This document shows, one piece after another, positions 19,427-24,006 of a DNA stretch of 64,000 bases. The position numbers and the translations under genes were made by a program. The DNA comes from Haloplanus salinarum (GTDB lineage Archaea; Halobacteriota; Halobacteria; Halobacteriales; Haloferacaceae): positions 1,984,001-2,048,000 of the forward strand of contig NZ_CP101823.1 of the NCBI RefSeq assembly GCF_024498175.1, written 5' to 3'. Position 1 is the stretch's first letter, and each line of letters begins with the position of its first letter. A model generated the notes under the pieces. That model was not told the DNA's origin. It worked only from the letters and a program-made list of their open reading frames with translations, and did not search any database.

Positions 19427-20188
19427 ATGAGCGAGGAACGCGACGCTCGGCTGGGACGGCGGCGGCTGTTGCAGGCGAGCGCCGGGGCCGTGGGTGCCGG
19501 GCTACTCGGTGTGGGAGCGACCGGGACCGCCGCGGGCCAGTCAGGCCCGTTCGACGGATGGATGAGTGACGTGAGCAACTACGAGGGCGTCGTCGACCAA
19601 ACGGGGTCGGGCGAGGTGACCGTCGAGGTGGGCGTCGAGGCCAACAACGGCGCGTTCGGGTTCGGTCCGGCGGCCATCCAGGTCGACACCGGGACCACCG
19701 TCGTCTGGGAGTGGACCGGCCAGGGCGGACAGCACAACGTCGTCGCGGAGGAGGGCGGCGACTTCGAGAGCGAGCTCTCCGCCGAAGCCGGCTTCACTTT
19801 CGAACAGACCTTCGACTCCGAAGGCGTCGTCAAGTACTTCTGTACGCCCCACCGGGCGCTCGGCATGAAGGGCGTCGTCGTCGTCGGCGACGTCGACACC
19901 GGCGCGGAGGTCATCAGCGGCGGTGGCGGCGACGGCGGTGGCGGCGGTGGCGACGGCGGTGGCGGCGACGGCGGTGGCGGCGGTAACAGCGGTAGTGAGG
20001 GGAGCGGGAGCGGCGGTGACGGCGGCAGCGCGGCCAGTCAGGTGATGTCCCTGGCGATCGGCGGGTCGCTCGTCGCCGCGTTCCTCTCGCCCATCGTCTT
20101 CGGGCTGATCCTGATGCTCCGGGATGCCGGCGGCTCTCGCTCCGACGACGCGAGCGCCGAACACGGGGAGCCGAGCCACGAGGACTAG
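19427..20188 (+). CDS. Halocyanin-domain blue copper protein with C-terminal membrane anchor
   Basis: This 253-residue protein has a twin-arginine signal (RLGRRRLLQASAGAVGAGLLG). The cupredoxin domain follows, with copper ligands visible as GGQHNVV (His) and YFCTPHRALGM (Cys, His, Met). A glycine/aspartate linker of about 45 residues leads to one membrane helix (SLVAAFLSPIVFGLILML) and an acidic tail. A GGAGG ribosome binding site lies just before the ATG, and ATATTTTTG sits about 36 bases upstream. Halocyanins shuttle electrons outside the membrane. Being next to nirK, it is the obvious candidate electron donor to nitrite reductase (inference). Confidence 0.93.
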   Translation: MSEERDARLGRRRLLQASAGAVGAGLLGVGATGTAAGQSGPFDGWMSDVSNYEGVVDQTGSGEVTVEVGVEANNGAFGFGPAAIQVDTGTTVVWEWTGQGGQHNVVAEEGGDFESELSAEAGFTFEQTFDSEGVVKYFCTPHRALGMKGVVVVGDVDTGAEVISGGGGDGGGGGGDGGGGDGGGGGNSGSEGSGSGGDGGSAASQVMSLAIGGSLVAAFLSPIVFGLILMLRDAGGSRSDDASAEHGEPSHED

Positions 20189-20826
20189 TCGACGACGCTC
20201 GCGTCGGCGACGAACGCGCGGATGATCGCGCCCTCGGCGCGGTGGAGCCGTTCGCTGGCGGTCGACTTGGCGATATCGAGGTGATCGGCCAGCTCGGTCA
20301 GCGTACAGGTCCGCGGCGTGTGGTAGTAGCCGCGTTCGACCGCCGTCTCGAGCAGGTCGCGCTGGCGGTCGGTGACGACCGACTCGGGGTCCATCGAGGT
20401 GCGGACCGACCGCACGTCGAACTCGAGGCCGAAGGTACGAAGCTGGTCGGCGAGCGACGACAGTCGGTCCCGCGAGGCCGTGAGTTCGAGGTCGGCGACG
20501 CCGTCGACGATGGTGATCGGCGGCTCGAACGGCGTCCGGGAGTTACGGATCGAGAGCAACAGGAGGGGTTCGTCGGTCTCGAACTGGATCAGCGCCCGGT
20601 CGTCCCCACGGTGGAGCAGTTCGAAGACCCGGACGCCGGAGACCGCATCGAGCTGCGAGAGGACGGCCTCCATGTCGGGGGCCGTGATCTCGACCAGCCC
20701 GACGCCCGTGTCGTCGTCGTCGGGGAGCGCGGCGAGTACGCGGAAGGTCGCCTCGGGATGGCGCGACGAGAGATCGGCGATCCAGACGTCCTCCGGAAGT
20801 GTCACCGCGAGCCGTGCCGTGGGCAT
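20185..20826 (-). CDS. Bat/HTH-10-type transcriptional regulator
   Basis: This 213-residue protein has an N-terminal alpha/beta sensing region (LAVTLPEDVWIADLSSRHPEATFRVLA) typical of haloarchaeal HTH-10 regulators. The C-terminal HTH is VTDRQRDLLETAVERGYYHTPRTCTLTELADHLDIAKSTASERLHRAE (residues about 155-205). The ATG at 20826 is preferred over a longer reading at 20901. It lies between halocyanin and nirK, convergent with halocyanin (four-base overlap) and 82 bases downstream of the nirK stop on the same strand. Regulators of this family next to nirK have been linked to denitrification control in haloarchaea. Control of nirK by this protein is inferred from position. Confidence 0.88.
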   Translation of the reverse strand: MPTARLAVTLPEDVWIADLSSRHPEATFRVLAALPDDDDTGVGLVEITAPDMEAVLSQLDAVSGVRVFELLHRGDDRALIQFETDEPLLLLSIRNSRTPFEPPITIVDGVADLELTASRDRLSSLADQLRTFGLEFDVRSVRTSMDPESVVTDRQRDLLETAVERGYYHTPRTCTLTELADHLDIAKSTASERLHRAEGAIIRAFVADASVVD

Positions 20827-20908
20827 GACAGTACGGTTGTCCGCGACGGGTATAAGTCGGTCTCGACGCGCCGGAACGGCGAACGGATCGACATCGACCA
20901 CAAGGATG

Positions 20909-22024
20909 TCAGGCGTACTGTGCCCCTTCGTGGCTGGTGCCGTGGGCGTCGGGGTCGTAGATGTCCTCGTTCTCCTCGCCGACCACGTCGACCTCCGCGA
21001 GCATCCCCCGGCGGGCGACGCGACTGAGCGCGTGGTCGACGAGCTTGATCCGCTCGGGGACGGGCGTGTCCATCTCGCCGATCATACAGCTTCCGGGCGG
21101 CACCTTCACCGTCTGGATGTTCTTGTCGGCGTACGCCTCGAAGTCACCGTCCTCGGGGATGCCACCGTCGCGGTAGGCCCGCTTCCAGACGTTGCCGATC
21201 GGGTGGAAGTTGCTGGAGTAGTTCGGGCCGCCGTCGACCATGAACACGCGCACCCGTTCGCCCTGCTGGACCTCGATCGGGCCGCGGTTGGCGGCCGCCC
21301 ACGCGTACTTCTCGCCGTTCAGGAGGACGTAGGTCGGGTTCTCGTTCCGCATCGCGGCCATGTCGAAGCTGTGCTTGCCCTCCTGTCCGACCTCGCCGTC
21401 GGTGTACACCTCGTGCTGGCCGAAGTAGAGCTCGCGGTCCACCTCGGGGAGTCCCCCCTCCGGTTCGACGAGGATCATGCCGAACATCCCGGCACTGATG
21501 TGCATGTCGAGGTTCGGCACGGCACAGTGGTAGATGAACGCGCCGGGGTAGTCGGCCCGGAACCGCATGGCGTTCTCCTCGCCGGGTGCGGCGGTGGTCG
21601 CCACCGCCCCGCCGCCGGTACCGTAGACGGCGTGGAGGTCAACGTTGTGTGGCAGCGCGTTACCCGAAGGACTCTCGAAGGTCAGGTCGACGGTGTCCCC
21701 CTGCCGGACCCGGATCATCGGGCCCGGAATCTCCCCGTCGAACGTCATGAAGTCGAAGGTGACGCCGGGTTCGATCTCGGCGGTCACCTCCTCGGCGGTC
21801 AGCGTAACCTCGTGCGTCGTCGGCTCGTCCCGATCGATCGGACCCGGGATGTCGGTGGGATCGGCAGCCACCTGGTCGGTAGTCGGCGTCGACGTCTGTT
21901 CGACCTGTTGTCGCTGCGTCTCGGCTTCAGAGGCTCTCGGAGCCTCGGCGCTGCACCCTGCAACTGTCGCCGCGCCGCCGATACCGAGCGCCTGGAGCGC
22001 CCGTCGACGGGTGGTTTCGAACAT
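20909..22024 (-). CDS. nirK: Copper-containing nitrite reductase
   Basis: NirK reduces nitrite to nitric oxide outside the membrane. This 371-residue protein has a twin-arginine lipoprotein-like leader (TRRRALQALGIGGAATVAGCS) and two cupredoxin domains. The ligands are visible: PHNVDLH (type 1/type 2 His), YHCAVPNLDMHISAGMFG (Cys, His, Met of type 1 copper), SSNFHPIG and KLVDHAL (type 2 His). Length is normal. The promoter region 22025-22188 contains a TATA box and a perfect palindrome (see 22103-22131). NO reductase and nitrate reductase genes are not in the window. Confidence 0.96.
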   Translation of the reverse strand: MFETTRRRALQALGIGGAATVAGCSAEAPRASEAETQRQQVEQTSTPTTDQVAADPTDIPGPIDRDEPTTHEVTLTAEEVTAEIEPGVTFDFMTFDGEIPGPMIRVRQGDTVDLTFESPSGNALPHNVDLHAVYGTGGGAVATTAAPGEENAMRFRADYPGAFIYHCAVPNLDMHISAGMFGMILVEPEGGLPEVDRELYFGQHEVYTDGEVGQEGKHSFDMAAMRNENPTYVLLNGEKYAWAAANRGPIEVQQGERVRVFMVDGGPNYSSNFHPIGNVWKRAYRDGGIPEDGDFEAYADKNIQTVKVPPGSCMIGEMDTPVPERIKLVDHALSRVARRGMLAEVDVVGEENEDIYDPDAHGTSHEGAQYA

Positions 22025-22102: not shown

Positions 22103-22131
22103 CCGAACCGGTTCGGCCGGGTACATAAAAG
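22103..22131 (-). promoter_or_regulatory. nirK TATA box with adjacent palindromic operator
   Basis: On the minus strand CTTTTATGTAC (22131-22121) is a TATA box. Five bases downstream lies the perfect 14-bp palindrome CCGAACCGGTTCGG (22116-22103), covering the region between TATA and the predicted start near 22100. The core CGAAC-NN-GTTCG recurs upstream of the MoaD-like gene at 22635-22646. It resembles the inverted CGAA...TTCG sites reported for denitrification promoters in Haloferax volcanii; I cannot confirm the exact spacing from memory. Confidence 0.65.
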
Positions 22132-22188: not shown

Positions 22189-22593
22189 TCAACAGCAGAA
22201 GATGAACGGGTAGACCAGGCTCACGCGGTCCTCGTCCTCGATTTTCGTGTCGAACCCGTCGAGGACCTCGTTGAACTTCCCGTTGACCAGCACACGCGCG
22301 TAGGGTTTCGTCTGTTCGCCCTCGGGATTCTTGTGCCACGTGCCCGGGAGGTTCTCCGGGGGTTTCGCCCACCCGTCGGTCGTCGCCTCGGCCTCCGTCT
22401 CCGCGACGAGCATCTCCGCGAGCCCGGGCTGTTCGTCGAACAGTTTCTCCAGCAGGTCCCGGAGGGTATGCCCCTCGAACGTGAACTCTTGGTGGGGCTG
22501 GTCCATCGCGTCGCGGACGTGTCCGGTCGCGTGGAGCGCCACCGTCGTCGTTCGTGGATCCGTCCGGCCCTCGGAATCGGTAGTCGTACTCAT
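22189..22593 (-). CDS. MoaD/ThiS-like beta-grasp protein with Cys-Cys C-terminus
   Basis: This 134-residue protein shows the beta-grasp pattern: HATGHVRDAM, a helix TLRDLLEKLFDEQPGLAEML, YARVLVNGKF, then EDEDRVSLVYPFIFCC. This is the order of MoaD/ThiS/SAMP ubiquitin-like proteins, where the last strand normally ends in Gly-Gly for adenylation and sulfur transfer. Here the protein ends Phe-Cys-Cys, so ordinary E1-type activation looks impossible. A central insert (TTDGWAKPPENLPGTWHKNP) is also unusual. It lies 164 bases upstream of nirK on the same strand, with its own promoter region carrying the nirK-type palindrome. A role in copper or sulfur delivery to NirK is speculation. Confidence 0.82.
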   Translation of the reverse strand: MSTTTDSEGRTDPRTTTVALHATGHVRDAMDQPHQEFTFEGHTLRDLLEKLFDEQPGLAEMLVAETEAEATTDGWAKPPENLPGTWHKNPEGEQTKPYARVLVNGKFNEVLDGFDTKIEDEDRVSLVYPFIFCC

Positions 22594-22634: not shown

Positions 22635-22646
22635 CGAACATGTTCG
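22635..22646. promoter_or_regulatory. Palindromic operator in the MoaD-like/HTH intergenic region
   Basis: CGAACATGTTCG is a perfect 12-bp palindrome with the same CGAAC-NN-GTTCG form as the nirK operator. It lies 42 bases upstream of the MoaD-like ATG and 71 bases upstream of the divergent HTH gene, so it could serve either. Confidence 0.6.
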
Positions 22647-22716
22647 ATCGGCTCCGTGTCGTCGTCGCGCTCCGGGAAACGGCGGGCCTAAGTGAGTTCC
22701 TCGGCGATGGGTGTGT

Positions 22717-23094
22717 ATGGTGCGCGATCCGCTGTCGGGCGACGATCCGCCCGACCTGCAGTCGGTGTTGGACGCTCTCGACGACGCCGACTGCCGGACC
22801 ATCATCCGGCACCTCGACGAGCCGATGACGGCGACCGAGGTGTCGGAGGAATGTGATATCCCCATGTCTACGACCTACAGAAAACTCGAGCTACTGACCG
22901 AAGCATCGTTACTCGTCGAGGGAACGGAGATCAGACCGGACGGTCACCACGCCACGCGCTACGAGGTCGACTTCGAGGCCGTCACCATCGGGGTGACCGA
23001 GCAGCGCGACCTGGACGTGAGTATCGACCGGCCGTCTCACAGCGCCGACGAGCGCCTCGCGTCACTGTGGGGGGAGGTTCGCAAGGAAACATGA
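22717..23094 (+). CDS. ArsR-like winged-helix regulator
   Basis: This 125-residue protein has a winged HTH from about residue 15 to 75 (LQSVLDALDDADCRTIIRHL, MTATEVSEECDIPMSTTYRKLELL) and a wing with GHHATRYEVDF. The rest is a short C-terminal extension. I chose the ATG at 22717; GTG at 22711 and 22720 are alternatives. Its stop overlaps the ATG of a small three-helix membrane protein, so the two form a unit. It is divergent from the MoaD-like gene across a shared palindrome. The ligand is unknown. Confidence 0.85.
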   Translation: MVRDPLSGDDPPDLQSVLDALDDADCRTIIRHLDEPMTATEVSEECDIPMSTTYRKLELLTEASLLVEGTEIRPDGHHATRYEVDFEAVTIGVTEQRDLDVSIDRPSHSADERLASLWGEVRKET

Positions 23095-23366
23095 GCCACA
23101 TCGACATCGCGCTCATGGCGGTCAAGACGGGGACGCTTTTGCTCGGGAGCCTCATCACCTTCCTCTCGCTCAAGGCCTACCGTCGGACTGGCACACCCGC
23201 GCTCCGGGCGCTCGGCATCGGGTTCGGTCTCGTCACCGTCGGCGCGCTCCTCGCCGGCGTCGGCCACCAGTTCACCGCGCTCTCGCTCACGCACTCGGTC
23301 GTCATCGAGAGCGGACTCACCCTCGTCGGCTTCGCGGTCATCGTCTACTCGCTGTACGTGGAGTGA
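23091..23366 (+). CDS. Small three-helix membrane protein paired with HTH regulator
   Basis: This 91-residue protein has three hydrophobic segments, around residues 10-30, 40-62 and 68-88, with RRTGTPALRAL in the first loop and a conserved-looking GHQFTALSLTHS between helices 2 and 3. Its ATG overlaps the stop of the HTH gene. A homologue with the same loop pattern (RRSRPYL, then DHHLFEH) lies at 24496-24834 and is also fused by overlap to a HTH gene. Such pairs suggest the membrane protein senses something and controls the regulator (inference). Confidence 0.82.
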   Translation: MSHIDIALMAVKTGTLLLGSLITFLSLKAYRRTGTPALRALGIGFGLVTVGALLAGVGHQFTALSLTHSVVIESGLTLVGFAVIVYSLYVE

Positions 23367-23445: not shown

Positions 23446-24006
23446 TCAGTAGCGGAGATAGAGCAGGCCGTAGACGACGTTGCCGAGGACAAAAGAGAGC
23501 AGCCAGAGCGCCGCGGCCACCCGTCCGACGCGGGCGTGGGCGGTGTCGGCGAGCGCCGCGACCGGACGTGTCGTCCCGAGCAGGAGCACGTAATAAAGGA
23601 GGGGGATACAGACGATGGCGAGGAGGATGTGGACCGCGAGGAGGGGGAGATACACCCAGCGGCGGACGGCGTCGGGGCCGGGGAACTCCGCGGGCCCAAC
23701 GAGTGTCACCTTGTAGAGGTAGAGCACGAGGAAGACGGCGAAGAGGGCGGCCGAGGTAAGCATCATCGCGCGGTGTCTGTCGAACTCGCCGCGGCGGGCG
23801 AAGGCGATGCCCGCGGCGATGGTGACTACGGCGACGGCGCTGACGGCGGCGTTGACGTGGGGGATGGCGGTCAGAACCGCCTCGGGCGCGCGCGGAACGG
23901 CGCCGCGGGGAATCGCGCCGAGCACCGCGCCGAACACCAGAGCGAGCGACGCGGCGGTGAGGACGGCGGTGAGTGCCGGCACGCGGTTCCGTGCGTCGAG
24001 CTGCAT
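23446..24006 (-). CDS. DUF420-like membrane protein
   Basis: This 186-residue protein has five or six membrane segments. The conserved-looking histidines are AIPHVNAAVSAV, EFDRHRAMMLTS and LLAVHILLAIV, and LYLYKVTLVG follows the second. This pattern matches the DUF420/YozB-CtaM group, whose members help assemble heme-copper oxidases in bacteria. Whether that role holds here is inference, but it fits a respiratory neighbourhood. It is transcribed toward the 23091 gene and converges with it, with 79 bases between stops. The ATG at 24006 is the only sensible start. Confidence 0.82.
   Translation of the reverse strand: MQLDARNRVPALTAVLTAASLALVFGAVLGAIPRGAVPRAPEAVLTAIPHVNAAVSAVAVVTIAAGIAFARRGEFDRHRAMMLTSAALFAVFLVLYLYKVTLVGPAEFPGPDAVRRWVYLPLLAVHILLAIVCIPLLYYVLLLGTTRPVAALADTAHARVGRVAAALWLLSFVLGNVVYGLLYLRY

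Follow-up and report, generated by a model that had tools for sequence, protein, structure and literature searches.

Why does a small MoaD/ThiS-like protein that ends in Cys-Cys, where ubiquitin-like sulfur carriers have their reactive Gly-Gly, stand beside a copper nitrite reductase gene in Haloplanus salinarum, and what could such a tail do? A first-pass annotation of the locus had proposed a job with NirK, for example copper delivery or protection, and a vicinal cysteine pair that could bind copper or form a persulfide. We analyzed the gene in its window (the whole stretch of 64,000 nt taken from contig NZ_CP101823.1) and in its relatives from other genomes. The relevant features of the window are as follows.

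19427 to 20188, plus strand: halocyanin, a blue copper protein (TIGR03102, E=3e-48)
20185 to 20901, minus strand: HTH_10/BAT-type regulator adjoining nirK (Pfam HTH_10, E=3e-17)
20909 to 22024, minus strand: nirK, copper nitrite reductase (TIGR02376, E=7e-113, above cut-off), downstream of the MoaD-fold gene on the same strand
22104 to 22115, unstranded: CGAACCGGTTCG, which fits CGAA-N4-TTCG, 80-91 nt upstream of the nirK ATG
22189 to 22593, minus strand: the MoaD/SAMP-fold gene, 134 aa, with ATG at 22593, stop at 22191-22189 and tail YPFIFCC
22635 to 22646, unstranded: CGAACATGTTCG, a denitrification-type operator, 42-53 nt upstream of the MoaD-fold ATG
22711 to 23094, plus strand: winged-helix regulator HTH_20, divergent to the MoaD-fold gene (Pfam, E=3e-11)
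23067 to 23366, plus strand: DUF7521 protein, overlapping the end of the HTH_20 gene (Pfam, E=3e-30)
23446 to 24006, minus strand: DUF420 protein (Pfam, E=2e-36)

DUF420 and DUF7521 neighbors also occur in three Haloplanus loci and in the related XH8 genome.

The MoaD/ThiS-like fold proposed at first was borne out by structure prediction. The AlphaFold2 model, computed from a 57-row alignment, has a mean pLDDT of 73 and a pTM of 0.65; the beta-grasp core is confidently predicted, and pLDDT falls below 50 at residues 65-78 and 89-91 of the insert and at residues 131-134 of the tail, which is thus predicted to be flexible, as had been supposed. MoaD and SAMP1 rank high among the nearest solved folds of the model (VIA Z 13.1 and rmsd 1.7 with 83 aligned residues for MoaD 6jbz_B; VIA Z 11.8 for SAMP1 3po0). 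The sole match of a PDB sequence search with the family profile (E≤0.01) was HVO_2177 (2m19), which we take to be SAMP3. The profile scores stayed below the cut-offs, just under for Pfam ThiS (E=2e-4, 22.1 bits vs. 22.5) and likewise sub-threshold for NCBIfam SAMP1 (31.7 bits vs. 60) and moaD_arch (29.0 vs. 49.5). The suspected insert is real: it spans approximately residues 65-98, and W75, P83, W86, N89, P90, G92, Q94, and T95 are invariant in the 57 rows, W86 being missing in some divergent rows outside that alignment (the L119/L122/L123 group, L114, and L118). The 134-aa sequence has no CxxC, Pfam gave no HMA match at E≤1, and no signal peptide is visible by eye.

The protein belongs to a real, conserved beta-grasp family and is not a strain quirk or a chance similarity. 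A profile search (E≤0.01) gave matches in 247 of 391 Halobacteria genomes and 59 of 86 genera, with two of the 247 (G018 and G382) unconfirmed by alignment-based search. The 120 genomes examined from the phylum beyond this class yielded seven weak matches, to part of the MoaD region only. In a pattern scan that reached other phyla all loci kept (best 80 of 119) were haloarchaeal, and the viral contigs scanned contained no relative. The nearest named relative, from Haloplanus ruber, is 93% identical (best 80 of 119 loci).

Cys133 and Cys134 are the penultimate and the terminal residue of the H. salinarum protein. Among the named relatives (best 80 of 119 loci) the tail is CC in 77 of 80 and the penultimate Cys is present in all 80; the three remaining tails, all from Halorientalis, are CL, CL, and CV. 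Another 82 rows, which contain duplicates and share certain species with the named set, gave 55 CC, 11 CL, 5 CV, 3 CF, and 8 other ends, the last group made up of one RC variant (G038) and seven broken, frameshifted or read-through copies. The penultimate Cys was found in 74 of these 82 rows; G038, with Arg at this position, is also missing the operator described below. A GG tail was seen in 0/80 of the named rows (best 80 of 119) and in 0/82 of the further rows, seven of them broken or read-through, so the loss of Gly-Gly is family-wide and the Cys-Cys end of H. salinarum is no single-strain variant. Decaying copies with an in-frame stop, a lost tail or frameshifts were observed at L116, L117, and L125-L128 (genomes G346, G141, G258, G036, and G339). 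The genomes of genus code g7, taken for Haloferax by gene content, have members with CL, CV or CC tails.

The conserved tail motif is P-F-x-[FY]-C-[C/L/V/F], in which the Cys is penultimate. A poorly resolved tree of 113 rows implies seven or more switches of the last residue between Cys and non-Cys, and in several lineages this residue is Leu, Val or Phe. In 10 of the 22 intact non-CC rows the penultimate Cys is the only Cys, and these 10 have no Cys codon between the start codon below the operator and the start of the match. The last Cys varies and these 10 rows contain just one, so what the family conserves is a single tail thiol; a vicinal pair is frequent and not required. The expectation of a conserved terminal CC therefore held for most named relatives and failed as a strict rule, and the idea of the cysteine pair as the working unit was not supported. 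Further up the chain, 56 of 57 rows retain His25 and 51 of 56 retain Cys22 (57-row alignment); five divergent rows have Arg in place of His25, and the single-Cys rows lack Cys22. The possibility that Cys22 serves as a reserve ligand where the terminal Cys is lost was rejected, both being absent in several rows.

The MoaD-fold gene and nirK do have an operator in common, as proposed, with CGAACATGTTCG at -42 and CGAACCGGTTCG at -80 from the respective ATGs. The window contains nine operator sites with two or fewer mismatches vs. 3.5 expected, and CGAACATGTTCG is the sole exact one. We then counted such sites in 81 loci (the best 80 of 119 plus the window), a set weighted to Natrinema, Halorubrum, and Haloarcula and including some short contigs. 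In the range from -260 to +40 relative to the match start, which is not a proven start codon, CGAA-N4-TTCG was found at 78 of the 81 family genes and the stricter CGAAC-N2-GTTCG at 68 of 81; the chance expectation for CGAA-N4-TTCG is 0.05 per 300 bases. With the range set at -300 to +60, the motif was present in 73 of the 82 further rows, and in the same loci at 46 of 916 other ORFs of at least 120 aa (from a simple ORF picker) and at 0 of 13 GG-type SAMP paralogues. Neighbors had an operator of their own in 8/13 cases for nirK-like genes (some of them multicopper oxidases), 12/17 for CGCGG, 5/29 for AhbD-like, 3/29 for AhbC-like, and 3/24 for MEM5 genes.

In Haloferax mediterranei the promoters of nir, nor, and nos were reported to share such a semi-palindrome, which is more divergent at nar and lies 79 nt upstream of nirK (PMC10062603). 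Point changes significantly lowered the activity of the nos and nor promoters, the nir promoter was not significantly affected and nar was unaffected (PMC10062603). In H. volcanii the motif was described at denitrification genes and ahbD, and was reported to be essential for nirK transcription (PMC5746218, citing Hattori 2016). Since 83 promoter regions of H. mediterranei in all, belonging to diverse genes, carry the motif (PMC10062603), the operator alone proves no denitrification role. At the level of promoter sequence, the operator nevertheless supports a link between the MoaD-fold gene and denitrification.

The gene neighborhood was compared within 5 kb in the 81 loci (best 80 of 119 plus the window). 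nirK was present in 9, norB in 7, and either in 16; AhbD-like genes were found in 25, AhbC-like genes (TIGR04347) in 15, CGCGG in 17, MEM5 in 20, MEM6 in 17, the window-type HTH_10 regulator in 16, Htur_1727 in 20, and GG-type SAMP in 13. Other copper neighbors in these 81 loci are a two-domain multicopper oxidase (4) and halocyanin (5). At least one of nirK, norB, AhbD-like, AhbC-like, CGCGG, MEM5, and MEM6 occurs in 50 of the 81 and none in 31. norB is adjacent to the gene in 21 of 38 genomes compared (20 divergent, 1 tandem), the 38 being among the matches listed, and 21/38 is not to be read as a rate. The genomes of genus code g2, some of which lack nirK, have the gene divergent to norB. 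In all 17 loci that have MEM6 (best 80 of 119 plus the window), it and the MoaD-fold gene are transcribed away from each other and the operator lies in the gap. In six Halorussus loci and L109 the ATG of MEM5 follows the stop of the gene by one base or overlaps it. Five of six annotated plasmid regions contain at least one of nirK, DUF2249, CGCGG, TIGR04347, TIGR04053, halocyanin, and a NorB-length "cbb3-type" subunit I. By its operator and neighbors the protein probably belongs to the NO/denitrification regulon.

H. volcanii HVO_1121 and HVO_2144 were reported to be ahbC and ahbD, respectively (PMC8305020), and we infer that TIGR04347 and TIGR04053 correspond to these two genes; nothing relevant on TIGR04053/CGCGG was found in the literature searched. 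In L067, L100, L054, and similar loci (Haloarcula, Halomicroarcula, and some Halorussus) the gene adjoins those for a GG-type SAMP and a small protein, with AOR near in several. From its context and the table of PMC2948915, the small protein is taken for the GG-ended TBP-fold arCOG06308.

MEM5 (L099:8359-9579) is a haloarchaeal membrane family without a Pfam, NCBIfam or PDB sequence match. Its AlphaFold2 model (pLDDT 88) has the fold of heme-copper oxidase subunit I, with VIA Z 34.8 to cbb3 8smr_E and 34.6 to NOR 4xyd_A. The model suggests a member of the heme-copper oxidase fold, which we call divergent because just two His are invariant across 19 rows. MEM6 (L036:6534-7913) is a membrane family without a Pfam or PDB sequence match and with one chance-level NCBIfam match (E=0.51). 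hhalign comparison of MEM5, MEM6, and NorB among themselves gave no convincing relation (probabilities of 37, 2, and 2%).

We examined co-occurrence across the 391 Halobacteria genomes, using odds ratios that ignore kinship. nirK (TIGR02376) is present in 215 genomes (both genes in 161, the MoaD-fold gene only in 86, nirK only in 54, neither in 90), which gives an odds ratio of 3.1 with kinship ignored. The association with norB (PF22085, 206 genomes) is stronger: both in 163, gene only in 84, norB only in 43, and neither in 101, with an odds ratio of 4.6 and p=5e-12, again ignoring kinship. For the AhbD-like TIGR04053 (164 genomes) the corresponding figures are 119, 128, 45, and 99, and the kinship-blind odds ratio is 2.0. 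A partial control for kinship comes from genus code g2, where all 26 norB genomes fall among the 36 carriers. The co-occurrence with nirK proposed as a check is thus present. Strict co-occurrence was rejected for nirK (86 of 247 carriers lack it) and for TIGR04053 (128 of 247 lack it). Of the job with NirK, the link to denitrification stood, given the operator at 78 of 81 loci (best 80 of 119 plus the window); a role specific to NirK did not, with 86 of 247 carriers devoid of nirK and nirK within 5 kb in only 9 of the 81.

As many as 35 of the 247 carriers are without nirK, norB, and the AhbD-like gene, four of these copies being unconfirmed or broken. The remaining 31 were compared with 37 controls drawn randomly from 73 genomes that have none of the four genes. 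Type II DMSO-reductase-family enzymes were rejected as the missing client (1/31 vs. 1/37). CGCGG proteins gave a weak signal (11/31 vs. 5/37), and MEM5 was found in 5/31 vs. 0/37.

Our best explanation, at a probability of roughly 0.4, is that the protein would be a cytoplasmic carrier of the haloarchaeal NO/denitrification regulon that works through its tail thiol, DsrC-like in its chemistry on a MoaD-type body. The C-terminal GG chemistry of the MoaD/SAMP-type body (thiocarboxylate or isopeptide) would be swapped for a flexible aromatic arm with a penultimate thiol, and the arm may swing into a partner enzyme. The tail of MoaD enters MoaE. As in DsrC, the penultimate Cys would carry sulfane sulfur (as a persulfide), or some other group bound to the thiol, to or from the partner. 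The likeliest partners would be the NO-handling membrane proteins NorB, MEM6, and MEM5 rather than NirK alone, because they share a divergent promoter or an operon with the gene. We favor the tail-thiol carrier because one thiol on a flexible aromatic arm and the conserved loop remain family-wide and because DsrC provides a precedent.

Several observations speak against the tail-thiol carrier. A gene for a sulfur donor or acceptor is never a constant neighbor, and the persulfide is for this reason an analogy only. The AhbD-like, AhbC-like, and MEM5 neighbors mostly lack an operator of their own (24/29, 26/29, and 21/24, respectively), neighbors vary by lineage, and 31 of the 81 loci (best 80 of 119 plus the window) are without the seven linked families. 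The 35 of 247 carriers without nirK, norB, and the AhbD-like gene also count against it. The last position is mostly Cys, which a single-thiol model does not explain, and some divergent rows have lost W86 from the loop. We hold it possible, with rather more doubt than assent, that a ubiquitin-fold protein has here traded its GG thiocarboxylate for a DsrC-like swinging tail thiol and come to serve haloarchaeal NO metabolism as a dedicated carrier (of NO, sulfane sulfur or metal/heme).

A rather unlikely alternative is an NO/redox buffer or sensor, in which the tail thiol would be S-nitrosated or oxidized and would signal to, or protect, regulators and NO-handling enzymes with no transfer of a group. 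The denitrification-type operator at 78 of 81 loci (best 80 of 119 plus the window), the stronger link to norB than to nirK (kinship-blind odds ratios of 4.6 and 3.1), and the presence of the gene in genomes without any tested reductase are all consistent with it; the conserved Trp/Pro/Gly loop and the aromatic tail, however, resemble a binding surface and go beyond the needs of a thiol buffer.

Copper delivery by a Cys pair is weakened by the tail counts. In a broader form of this idea, a Cu(I) carrier or chaperone would bind the metal through its tail thiol(s), possibly assisted by Cys22 and His25 from the CTGH motif close to the base of the tail, and load NirK, a multicopper oxidase or other copper enzymes; we consider it unlikely. 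Copper proteins do adjoin the gene in several lineages (nirK 9, multicopper oxidase 4, and halocyanin 5 of the 81 loci, best 80 of 119 plus the window), a heavy-metal P-type ATPase lies near it in Haloprofundus, and His25 and Cys22 are well retained in the 57-row alignment. However, a Cys-pair copper site is disfavored because single-Cys rows exist: 10 of the 22 non-CC rows have one Cys and no Cys22, and His25 has become Arg in the five divergent rows. Some genomes that lack nirK still keep the gene in divergent orientation to norB, whose product is an iron enzyme. CxxC and an HMA match are absent, and NirK of the window, with a Tat-like leader by eye (TIGR01409 only at E=0.054), is probably extracytoplasmic.

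An improbable reading is a SAMP-like modifier or Moco sulfur carrier whose carboxylate would be activated by UbaA even though GG is missing, perhaps to serve a nitrate or DMSO reductase. It draws on the predicted SAMP/MoaD fold, on a GG-type SAMP gene lying no more than 5 kb away in 13 of the 81 loci (best 80 of 119 plus the window), with AOR near in several of these, and on Halobaculum, where the gene is plasmid-borne in seven PLSDB records. Among the Halobaculum plasmids examined (L172, L173, and L176), the molybdopterin oxidoreductase operon lies directly downstream of the gene in two of three, and one of those two regions has no denitrification gene within the stretch. SAMP or Moco chemistry is nevertheless disfavored because GG is missing: the last residue is C, L, V or F in the rows seen. 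Type II DMSO-reductase-family enzymes are no more frequent among the 31 carriers without nirK, norB, and AhbD-like genes than among the 37 controls (one genome each), and the adjoining GG paralogues lack the operator (0/13).

Most improbable is a membrane-anchored Ubl, in which the F-C-[C/L/V/F] tail would be a lipidation signal (a thioether lipid on Cys) that brings the protein to membrane partners, since, although the C-terminal C-[C/hydrophobic] tail and the recurrent membrane neighbors norB, MEM5, and MEM6 would suit it and haloarchaea have protein-bound thioether lipids, no transferase gene was noticed on inspection of the recurrent neighbors.

The family was already known by sequence; what is new, within the literature searched, is its operator, its link to NO, and the rule that a single thiol is conserved. 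A haloarchaeal beta-grasp family with a C-terminal CC, arCOG00539, was described by Makarova and Koonin (2010; PMC2948915), the only paper in the literature searched that names this arCOG, and to judge from the description our family is probably arCOG00539. Both are from Halobacteria, have the beta-grasp fold and end in CC; in the family as sampled here CC is not strict, and the operator and the NO/denitrification link are added. Sections 3.1 and 3.2 and Table 1 of that paper contain no function or gene association for arCOG00539 (PMC2948915). A MoaD-type protein is not mentioned in the available text of PMC10062603 and PMC11218638 (the term "moad" is absent), and the literature searched, in the portions at hand, gave no study of a MoaD-type protein with nirK or denitrification in haloarchaea and no description of tail-thiol chemistry for Ubl proteins.

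A reactive glycine at the C-terminus defines ubiquitin-like proteins. This large, conserved family, which has the fold and one tail Cys without the glycine, would allow a second chemistry of the fold to be put to the test, and the members in genus code g7 (taken for Haloferax) may make such a test feasible in a model archaeon. The family also adds an uncharacterized gene to a regulon with mostly unknown accessory proteins, which matters for the N2O and NO that saline waters release.

In DsrC the penultimate Cys, strictly conserved and placed on a flexible C-terminus, is the sole persulfurated residue, and the other Cys is optional (PMC3397948). The present family resembles DsrC/TusE in keeping a penultimate Cys on a flexible C-terminus (Arg replaces it in one row, G038) and differs in its MoaD-type beta-grasp body; no Dsr/Tus partners were noticed among the neighbors, and membership is not claimed. 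An NCBIfam scan at E≤1 yielded SAMP1 and moaD_arch only, leaving the DsrC profile TIGR03342 unmatched, and DsrC is absent from the fold matches of the model, among the matches listed. With SAMP1, SAMP3, and MoaD the family shares the fold and the position of the tail; it differs from them in the missing GG, the Trp/Pro loop, the denitrification-type operator, and its scores below the cut-offs. With the denitrification regulon (nirK, norB, nosZ, halocyanin, DUF2249, and ahbD) it shares the CGAA-N4-TTCG-type motif and the neighborhood.
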